From NCBI GenBank assembly GCA_016765035.1, contig JAESQS010000138.1, positions 1-44,493 on the forward strand: a stretch of DNA of 44,493 nucleotides. Reading direction: 5' to 3'. Shown here in pieces: positions 777-34,130 of this stretch (position 1 is its first letter; every line of letters starts with the position of its first letter). Under the pieces are notes generated by a model, which did not search any database, was not told the origin of the DNA, and worked only from the letters and a program-made list of their open reading frames with translations. The position numbers and the translations under genes are program-made. Origin of the DNA: Kordiimonadaceae bacterium (GTDB lineage: Bacteria; Pseudomonadota; Alphaproteobacteria; Sphingomonadales; Kordiimonadaceae).

Positions 777-904
777 TTCTTTGGCGGCGTTTTTGCGAAA
801 TTAGATTTTCCTGAAAGTATAGCTGGGAACCTATCTGTGCTTGGGCTTGCTCTTTTCCTCTTATAAATCCCTCAAATATAGGCGGACCTTCAAGGGTTTT
901 GGAG

Positions 905-961
905 CAGAGAGTAAGCGCGGCGTGTGACGGTGATGCATAGTAAGCCGGATACGCTCTAATG
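905..961 (+). repeat. Half copy of REP/MITE-like intergenic element (3' half, ends ...TAAGCCGGATACGCTCTAA)
   Basis: Positions 919-960 match 24161-24203 in about 34 of 42 positions by hand alignment (GGCGTG..CGGTGATGC.TAGTAA...); CAGAGAGTAAGC is the exact reverse complement of GCTTACTCTCTG at 7755-7766. Confidence 0.65.
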
Positions 962-7716: not shown

Positions 7717-7816
7717 GCGCGTATCCGATTTTAGAGCATTTCCACCCACTCCCCGCTTACTCTCTGGCCCAACCACCCCACAGTATATCTTAGAGTGTGG
7801 TTGGATATGCTTTAGG
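7717..7816. repeat. REP/MITE-like intergenic element copy (internally shortened 3' arm)
   Basis: GCGTATCCGATTTTAGAGCATTTCCACCCACTCCCC...GGCCCAACCACCCCACAG aligns with 24076-24135; stem CCAACCAC/GTGGTTGG; ends ATATGCTTTAGGG like 24836-24847. Lies between convergent mutL and patatin genes. Confidence 0.65.
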
Positions 7817-7831
7817 GAGTTGAGCGTAAAT

Positions 7832-14472: not shown

Positions 14473-14575
14473 AAATAATAAAGGGGTGTGGTGCCCGATC
14501 GATCAGGGAGATAATTTTAACAAAAATAATAAAGGGGTGTGGTGCCCGATCGATCAGGGAGATAATTTTAACAAA
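14473..14575. repeat. 51-bp perfect tandem duplication (2 copies)
   Basis: AAATAATAAAGGGGTGTGGTGCCCGATCGATCAGGGAGATAATTTTAACAA at 14473-14523 and again at 14524-14574. Confidence 0.97.
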
Positions 14576-24072: not shown

Positions 24073-24203
24073 TAGAGCATATCTGGTTTAATTAGAGTCA
24101 CTTCCGCCCACGCCCCCTACCCAACCACCCCACAGTGTATCCTAGCGGGTGGTTGGGTAGGGGGCGTGGGCCGGTGATGCCTAGTAAACCAAATATGCCC
24201 TAA
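24073..24203. repeat. REP/MITE-like palindromic element, best full copy
   Basis: 24-bp perfect stem CCCACGCCCCCTACCCAACCACCC (24107-24130) / GGGTGGTTGGGTAGGGGGCGTGGG (24147-24170), 16-nt loop; outer inverted repeats TAGAGCATATCTGGTTTA (24073-24090) / TAAACCAAATATGCCCTA (24185-24202), 16 of 18 pairs match. Confidence 0.88.
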
Positions 24204-24215
24204 TAAGGGGATAGC

Positions 24216-24830
24216 GTGCAAATGGACTTTCATCTTTGGCCTACTATAAAAATGCCGCTTTTGTTGGCGTTGATGTTGCCTGTTGTTGTCGCGTGCAGTG
24301 AAAATGCAGATACGCCTGCACCTGAAGTAAAACCAGTTACCAAAATAGCGGAAATATATTTTCGGTATGGCACTGAAGCGGCTGCCCGCAGCAGCGGTGC
24401 GTGGAATGAAGCCAGCTATAGGGCATTGATGAATAGCGAAACCGTCAGTAAAGGCGCACGCTGTGTGCAGGATAGGGTTGTTTCGCAGGGGCGTGGTCTA
24501 TACCGGGAAACGCGCTTACAATCTTTATTGCTCAAGCATTTGTTTCCTGCGGATTTAAGCACATATAGTGCCTTTGTAGATGATGCTGTGGTCCATAATA
24601 CAGCGCTTGTTAGGCTTAAAAAACTGGGCTTTGCAAGTTATGAAGCGGCCATCAAAAGCAACAATATGATCGTGCGCTCCCTCTTAACGGAATATACCCA
24701 TTACGCACGGTTTCGTAATATGCACGATGTTTCAAAGGGAGTTCAGGCTTCCAATGTGGTGATAAACAGCTGCGCACCAGATGCTATCACCAACATGTTA
24801 GGGGGAGTGGGCGGAAATGACCCTACTTAA
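24216..24830 (+). CDS. Hypothetical lipoprotein
   Basis: N-terminal signal with lipobox-like VVVAC-S; 204 aa; start may be internal (MPLLLALMLPVVVAC). Confidence 0.65.
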   Translation: MQMDFHLWPTIKMPLLLALMLPVVVACSENADTPAPEVKPVTKIAEIYFRYGTEAAARSSGAWNEASYRALMNSETVSKGARCVQDRVVSQGRGLYRETRLQSLLLKHLFPADLSTYSAFVDDAVVHNTALVRLKKLGFASYEAAIKSNNMIVRSLLTEYTHYARFRNMHDVSKGVQASNVVINSCAPDAITNMLGGVGGNDPT

Positions 24831-24848
24831 ACCAAATATGTTTTAGGG
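24799..24848 (-). repeat. Half copy of REP/MITE-like element overlapping the 3' end of the lipoprotein CDS
   Basis: TAGGGGGAGTGGGCGGAAATGACCCTACTTAAACCAAATATGTTTTA matches the reverse complement of 24073-24119 in about 40 of 47 positions by hand alignment. Confidence 0.75.
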
Positions 24849-31207: not shown

Positions 31208-31912
31208 ATGGACGATCTGATTGAATTGGAGGCTAGTTGGGGTTTAGCCTTGGCCCCAGAATTTACCAAGGACTATATGCAGCAGCTCAAAGCATTTTTG
31301 CACGGGGAACTTGCAGTAGGTAAAACCATATTCCCAAAAAATAGCGAGTATTTTGCAGCACTGAATCGGACGCCAGTGGATGAGGTGAAGGTGGTTATAT
31401 TGGGGCAGGATCCCTACCACGGTCCCGGTCAGGCACATGGCTTATGCTTTTCAGTGCAGCCCGGCGTGCCTGCGCCTCCGTCGCTTGTGAATATTTATAA
31501 AGAAATGGAAGATGACCTTGGCATTGTACGCGCCCATCATGGGTGTTTACATGCATGGGCAGACCAAGGCGTGCTGTTGTTGAACGCTGTATTGACGGTA
31601 GAGGCGCATAATGCGGCTTCGCATCAGGGGCGCGGGTGGGAAGCTTTCACTGATGCCATCATTGCTGAGCTTAATGAAAAGCATGAAAATCTGGTGTTTA
31701 TATTGTGGGGTGGTTATGCGCAAAAGAAGGGCGCGAAAATTGATGGTACGAAGCATTTGGTGTTGAAATCACCGCACCCCTCGCCCTTATCATCTTACCG
31801 TGGCTTTTTTGGTAGCAAACCCTTTTCCCAAACAAATGCCTATCTGGAAGCAAAGGGCAAAGCGCCCATTGTGTGGCAACTGCCTTCAGCCGGCGGTGGC
31901 CTATTGTTATAA
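31208..31912 (+). CDS. ung: Uracil-DNA glycosylase
   Basis: [52 protein letters not shown]; start at [11 protein letters not shown] (31208) more plausible than ORF-track 31079. Confidence 0.95.
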
Positions 31913-31927
31913 TAAGGCGCTGATAGC

Positions 31928-31999
31928 CTGCCCACACCCTGCTTACTTTATATGACCAACCACCCCACAGTGTAATCTATCGGGTGGTTGGGTAAAATT
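31928..31999. repeat. REP/MITE-like element copy (core hairpin) between convergent ung and M20 genes
   Basis: CCAACCACCC (31956-31965) / GGGTGGTTGG (31982-31991) with 16-nt loop CACAGTGTAATCTATC, close to the loop CACAGTGTATCCTAGC at 24131-24146. Confidence 0.75.
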
Positions 32000-32001
32000 A
32001 T

Positions 32002-33502: not shown

Positions 33503-34012
33503 TTATGTCGCTCCGTCAAGCCATTTATACATGACGTGAACACCCACATACCCCAATTCAGCGTGGTTAAAGGCGCGGGGGATGGTACCAACGATGGTAA
33601 AACCCATTTTTTGCCAAAGAGACACTGCACCTTTGTTGCTTTCCACCACGGCATTATATTGCATGGCCTTGAAGCCGAGGGCCTGTGCCTGTTCCTGCGA
33701 ATGCTCACACATCATAGTGGCGATGCCGCGTCCTTGGGCCTTTGGGCTAACCATATAACCGCCGTTGGCTATATGGTCACCGGGGCCTTCTCTGTTTTTC
33801 GCGAGTTTGTACGTGCCCACGATCACTCCGTCTTCCCCATCACCATCTACTGCGACAAATGTCTTGGCTGACCTACGCATCCACATAGAAAGCGCGTCTG
33901 TATAGCTTATGTCACGGTCAATAGAATAGGTTGTGCCAGCAGAAACAATCTCTCGAAAGAACGGCCATATGTGCTGAAAATCTTCAGTCTTCGCTTCACG
34001 GATTACTATCAT
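33503..34012 (-). CDS. GNAT family N-acetyltransferase
   Basis: GGYMVSPKAQGRGIATMMCEHSQEQAQALGFKAMQYNAVVESNKGAVSLWQKMGF. Confidence 0.93.
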   Translation of the reverse strand: MIVIREAKTEDFQHIWPFFREIVSAGTTYSIDRDISYTDALSMWMRRSAKTFVAVDGDGEDGVIVGTYKLAKNREGPGDHIANGGYMVSPKAQGRGIATMMCEHSQEQAQALGFKAMQYNAVVESNKGAVSLWQKMGFTIVGTIPRAFNHAELGYVGVHVMYKWLDGAT

Positions 34013-34033: not shown

Positions 34034-34130
34034 GGTAGCATTCGGTTTAATATGCGCCACAGCCCTCTACCCACCCTCAGACTTGTACTCTAGGGGAGGG
34101 AGTGTGGGCCAGTTGAGGCATGGAAGTTTT
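34034..34130. repeat. Diverged REP/MITE-like element copy
   Basis: TAGCATTCGGTTTAATATGCGCCACAGCCCTCTACCCACC...GAGGGAGTGTGGGCCAGTTGAGGCATGG parallels the 24073-24182 layout; stem CCACAGCCCTC (34057-34067) / GAGGGAGTGTGG (34096-34107). Confidence 0.5.

Follow-up and report, generated by a model that had tools for sequence, protein, structure and literature searches.

A palindromic MITE of a Kordiimonadaceae genome and its hairpin core, patchily distributed across Alphaproteobacteria

What is the palindromic element at positions 24073–24202 of the 44,493-nucleotide stretch of Kordiimonadaceae DNA analysed here (the window), what moves it, and how do its two arms stay matched? Its central palindrome (24106–24171) consists of two perfectly complementary arms of 25 bp around a 16-nt loop, and an outer inverted repeat of 18 bp gives the element a total length of 130 bp (Table 1). 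The first-pass annotation of this DNA had described a perfect 24-bp stem with a 16-nt loop, bracketed by an outer inverted repeat and ending at 24203: the loop and the bracketing repeat stand as described, whereas the stem measures 25 bp by arm complementarity and the right repeat ends at 24202. No Rfam family matched at gathering score anywhere in the window; all matches obtained were sub-threshold, most of them to unrelated microRNA models.

Table 1. Coordinates of the element, its parts and its relatives in the window.
Feature	Position	Strand	Support
Complete MITE copy of the short-arm (130-bp) type, terminal repeats present at both ends	24073..24202	.	nhmmer E 1e-31
Left terminal inverted repeat, TAGAGCATATCTGGTTTA; TA is the presumed target duplication	24073..24090	+	
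Right terminal inverted repeat (TAAACCAAATATGCCCTA on the + strand)	24185..24202	-	
Left arm of the perfect 25-bp core stem	24106..24130	+	inverted-repeat pair I3
16-nt loop, CACAGTGTATCCTAGC, including the class-wide TATCCT	24131..24146	+	
Right arm of the core stem, rich in G and conforming to a four-tract G-quadruplex motif	24147..24171	+	
Match to the class-wide core covariance model R1	24101..24176	+	78.5 bits
Degenerate long-arm copy between the convergent mutL and patatin-like genes	7717..7826	+	nhmmer E 1e-19
Degenerate copy (core 31956–31994) between the convergent UDG and M20-peptidase genes	31906..32001	+	nhmmer E 2e-14
Right half of a long-arm copy, including terminal repeat 941–958	887..958	+	nhmmer E 3e-11; inverted-repeat pair I5
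Right-end remnant overlapping the 3' end of ORF 24216–24830	24800..24845	+	nhmmer E 3e-5

The element occupies well over a hundred places in the host genome, a draft assembly of 3.36 Mb that is 76% complete (G000) and in which the window is contig 55. A DNA search of this assembly scored 40 of 188 candidate places and a covariance model found about 50 distinct scorable hairpins, while the outer terminal repeat occurs 235 times at three or fewer mismatches, against six times for a reversed-pattern control. Stem, loop and outer repeats all align across 29 host-genome copies. The family is thus dispersed genome-wide, as had been proposed from the window, with copies outside it that share the conserved core, the loop and the outer repeats in addition to a GC-rich stem. 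Elements with both ends are mainly about 130, 141–142 or 152 bp long, corresponding to short, mixed and long inner arms, and have the form of non-autonomous miniature inverted-repeat transposable elements (MITEs): short, non-coding, with terminal inverted repeats and present in many copies. Several host contigs begin or end inside a copy, and the repeat probably fragments the assembly.

The ends of full elements read TA/GAGC...GCTC/TA, with TA, itself inside the search pattern, at 26 of 28 and 28 of 28 ends, respectively. A pyrimidine precedes the element in 25 of 28 cases and a purine follows it in 25 of 28, which defines a YTAR target; since this preference lies outside the search pattern, it provides independent evidence of the target. 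From the ends and the target preference together, a TA target duplication is presumed. An exact empty orthologous site showing the insertion footprint was not recovered.

Relatives elsewhere in the window were searched with an nhmmer profile made of full-length copies from the rest of the genome only, the copy at 24073–24202 being left out. Five window sites were found, all with E-values of 3e-5 or below; the reversed window gave no match. The profile recovered all four relatives that had been noticed near 905–961 (half), 7717–7816, 24799–24848 (half) and 31928–31999. A further proposed relative, at 34034–34130, was not confirmed: it scored E>10 with the profile and gave no match to the class-wide covariance model with filters off, and, if it is related, any kinship is too decayed for proof. 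The earlier description, by which every copy is intergenic or lies at a gene end, is accurate only because gene ends are included, as the remnant at 24800–24845 shows. The last codons and the stop region of ORF 24216–24830, whose 204-aa product is without Pfam match, come from this remnant. In a relative (G008), the gap orthologous to the copy at 31906–32001 is about 50 bp shorter and carries no hairpin; this is a presence/absence difference across a divergence too great for a footprint. Two other features of the window were observed: the GNAT acetyltransferase gene at 33503–34012, between the M20 and S9 peptidase genes, is apparently absent from the matching gap in some sister genomes (G008, G014), and a 51-bp unit (AAATAATAAAGGGGTGTGGTGCCC...) unrelated to the hairpin family is perfectly duplicated in tandem at 14473–14574.

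The hairpin core extends far beyond the host. The exact host-genome loop did not occur in a species-level genome collection, from which records very close to the host genome may be missing. A looser pattern composed of ACCACC, TATCCT and GGTGGYYGGG with gaps yielded at least 98 stretches, against about two estimated by chance. Apart from a few labelled no more precisely than Proteobacteria and a single one labelled Bacillus, the matches listed bear the names of alphaproteobacteria (Sphingomonas, Novosphingobium, Sphingobium, Hephaestia, Minwuia, IMCC3096, Pelagibius, Hellea and others). The record under the latter name, Bacillus sp. 2B10 (L044, RPSH01000012.1), has the hairpin in DNA of 69.7% GC and is probably mislabelled or contaminated. 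The arms are conserved beyond the pattern positions too (GGCCCRCTCCCCC; alignment A1). The core module has arms of about 25–40 bp or more, with a median of 33 in 129 hairpins outside the window, and a loop of about 14–20 nt containing TATCCT. Model R1 was positive in 24 of 290 genomes of the class, often at high copy, and gave one borderline match outside the class in a 299-genome sample of the phylum; the 19 sister genomes hold 0–10 hairpins, against about 45–50 in the host. Given these counts, the distribution of the core across the class is patchy. The core is older than the MITE of the host genome, since it usually occurs without the ends of that MITE.

Two explanations of this distribution were discarded. 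Spread by phages or plasmids found no echo in the records, of which none from a phage and only three from plasmids match. SbcD cuts long palindromes, and its loss would be a conceivable cause of the patchiness; full matches to SbcD were obtained in three of 54 genomes, two of them hairpin-positive (including the high-copy G224) and one negative, and are therefore not discriminating. The rarity of SbcD matches (TIGR00619) above the curated cut-off, three among the 54 alphaproteobacterial genomes tested, is an observation in its own right, and tolerance of long palindromes may be unusually high in this class.

The surroundings of the hairpin vary from lineage to lineage. The terminal repeats of the host genome are missing around the hairpin in most other lineages, as they are in the sister genomes, where none of them is present as an element. 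In a genome of another family (G112), the core lies in the middle of a 396-bp repeat with ends TAGAGCACTTTCCGACCATATGG, present in four copies (L245–L247, L249) that are 88–92% identical, and the same genome also has the hairpin in shorter elements ending TAGAGCG. Minwuia-like genomes and G340 show other, weaker outer repeats; outside G000 and G112, terminal repeats accompanied by target duplications could not be clearly made out. Comparison of these bodies indicates that the core is housed in at least two unrelated MITEs, whose only common feature is a TA/GAGC-type end. A different arrangement was seen at one locus of G020 (L312, contig C6, 285000–296500), where four hairpins lie in about 9 kb with extra half-hairpin units in a BIME-like mosaic.

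The first-pass annotation had entertained a REP/BIME-type repeat mobilised by RAYT. An enzyme of this Y1/HUH type would work on the hairpins in single-stranded form. The high copy number of intergenic palindromes close to the 3' ends of genes and the mosaic clusters of G020 would fit such a repeat, and Y1 transposases are present in 8 of the 17 hairpin-positive genomes tested. However, a search for PF01797 was negative in the host draft (76% complete), in G126 and G303, and in G224 and G082, which are complete and carry the hairpin at high copy; stems of 25–40 bp or more are far from the 8–9 bp of CGTC REPs, the loop dimensions are likewise wrong, and no GTAG or CGTC tag exists in the consensus of alignment A1. 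We therefore rejected a REP/RAYT origin, which we consider very unlikely.

Searches of the 76%-complete draft for the PF13586 and Y1 families found no cognate transposase with matching ends. The only PF13586 (IS5-type) match of the host genome is a 3' transposase fragment at the start of contig C174 (L039, 1–384), which was dismissed as the parent, its end reading TGTCCACAGACCC followed by TAG and not GAGCGTATCC. We take the TA/GAGC ends at YTAR sites to resemble those of the IS427 and IS1031 groups of the IS5 family, and the element is most likely moved in trans by a DDE transposase of this type. Elements of the IS427 group in Paracoccus mostly make 2-bp duplications (PMC3281130). The cognate enzyme would be flanked by TAGAGCRTATCYGGTTTA.

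The near-perfect pairing of the arms raises the question of how it is upheld. Changes on both sides were found at 10 of 28 stem pairs, with a covariation score of 0.192, against 0.072 for shuffled alignments and at most 0.034 for slid controls; alignment columns 24–29 and 52–61 are constrained by the search pattern, while pairs 2/79, 5/76, 10/71 and 12/69 escape this constraint. Covariation of this kind is usually taken as a mark of selection on RNA. Yet G-U combinations number 34 against 48 A-C on the transcript strand in tandem-gene contexts, so that G-U is not in excess, and on this count RNA-level selection on the stem was rejected. It is further disfavoured by two observations. Where copies disagree with one another, the left and right arms of each copy still agree, and of six pairs of orthologous sites compared between related genomes, three (L099/L101, L074/L223 and L090/L122) have the loop or the entire element in opposite orientations. 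Inner-arm types are mixed in many host-genome copies, indicating that homogenisation is incomplete. Polymerase template switching between inverted repeats yields both arm homogenisation and spacer inversion (PMC8604942). The symmetry thus appears to be upheld on DNA, by template switching at replication, and not by an RNA function.

Neither the conserved loop nor the invariant C/G tracts are accounted for by template switching; a binding protein, a structure formed by the DNA or recent shared ancestry may lie behind them. The hairpin could be bound by a DNA-binding protein conserved in Alphaproteobacteria, or form a structure such as a cruciform or G-quadruplex, and be spread and kept because it organises DNA between convergent genes. 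Loop and tracts are conserved class-wide with the covarying pairs mostly between the tracts, a four-tract G-quadruplex motif occurs on one arm in 41 of 46 aligned cores, and the two-fold symmetry combined with random orientation would suit such a site; but the hairpin is missing from most members of the class, sister species included, and the search pattern (ACCACC, TATCCT, GGTGGYYGGG) itself imposes part of the conservation. On balance, we find this explanation improbable.

Gene context was determined with a codon-model gene caller. Host-genome copies lie between convergent genes in 34 cases, tandem genes in 17 and divergent genes in 3, while all intergenic regions of the same loci, copies included, number 55, 95 and 44, respectively; these loci were chosen for holding copies, so that only the relative bias is meaningful. 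The earlier statement that the copies lie mostly 3' of genes is upheld. The bias is weaker in other genomes, with 22 convergent, 54 tandem and 10 divergent copies against 65, 239 and 100 regions. This location, together with very stable stems and strong covariation, would be expected of a functional 3'-end element, either a bidirectional terminator or an mRNA-stabilising hairpin under RNA selection. An intrinsic terminator, and with it the function in transcription end suggested in the first pass, was ruled out by the scarcity of T-runs: TTTT lies within 12 nt of the stem at 0 of 48 ends in the host genome and 3 of 257 elsewhere, which is rarer than background. A conserved gene association was equally rejected, both neighbours being homologous in close relatives only. 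In addition, the orientation of the loop relative to the gene is random (7:4, 30:24, 6:6), the element is patchy among sister species and, as described above, G-U is not favoured over A-C. A functional 3'-end element is thus unlikely, and we read the location as tolerance of insertions at gene 3' ends, with a mild benefit possible.

Taken together, a MITE that carries an older hairpin module, is mobilised in trans by an IS5-type enzyme, is kept symmetrical by template switching and survives at gene 3' ends is the reading we hold to be reasonably probable. A MITE of 130–152 bp with 18-bp terminal repeats would insert at YTAR sites with a presumed TA duplication, an IS5-family DDE transposase acting in trans on its ends. 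Its centre bears the older module, with arms of about 33–40 bp and a TATCCT loop, which we regard as a passenger of successive vehicles because it is found inside different end sequences. At replication, the polymerase would switch template between the arms, leaving them near perfect and flipping the loop, with no need for RNA-level selection. Copies would survive chiefly where an insertion disrupts no coding sequence and no promoter, at the 3' ends of genes and above all in the gaps of convergent pairs; we infer purifying selection as the cause of this location. A bolder extension, which we find rather doubtful, is that the core is a minimal selfish DNA unit of Alphaproteobacteria that repeatedly enters unrelated MITEs and multiplies with them to high copy, while template switching preserves its symmetry and inverts its loop; if true, the hairpin would be a parasite of transposable elements. 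The family offers a natural replicated experiment on the persistence of long perfect palindromes in bacteria, and its many independent copies with arm homogenisation and loop inversion make the rate of template switching measurable by strain comparison. It also carries a warning that compensatory changes in a hairpin do not prove a functional RNA, and the occurrence of a class-wide core in different MITE ends turns the role of the conserved loop and C/G tracts into a testable question.

Among known systems, we take the closest in form to be the MITEs with TA targets (ERIC, NEMIS/Correia, RUP and Nezha): they are likewise non-coding, palindromic and foldable elements of 100–170 bp, intergenic and at high copy, with terminal inverted repeats and TA ends. 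To our knowledge, the sequences of the terminal repeat and of the core are unlike theirs and, in contrast to them, the hairpin described here is class-wide, lies inside unrelated MITE ends and has far more perfect arms. The IS427 and IS1031 groups of the IS5 family presumably share its TA/GAG-type ends, but no transposase was found with the ends of this element. The presumed TA duplication would also have a parallel in the 2-bp duplications of most Paracoccus IS427 elements (PMC3281130). GTAG and CGTC REPs are tagged palindromes of 20–40 bp (PMC3733652). The CGTC-tagged REPs resemble the present family as high-copy palindromes found mainly in Alphaproteobacteria, apparently without a dedicated transposase, but have stems of 8–9 bp, loops of 4–5 nt, a CGTC tag and a CCA tail (PMC3733652), whereas this core has stems of 25–40 bp, loops of about 14–20 nt and no tag. 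BIMEs and REPINs of Enterobacteria and Pseudomonas form mosaics of palindromic units near gene 3' ends, as seen in G020, yet the host draft yielded no RAYT, and the present family differs in size and sequence. A full-text literature search with core strings gave only unrelated papers among the matches listed, subscription papers being mostly outside its reach. The element is a MITE in form, and what sets it apart is a class-wide core carried in several vehicles, together with the inversions of its loop.
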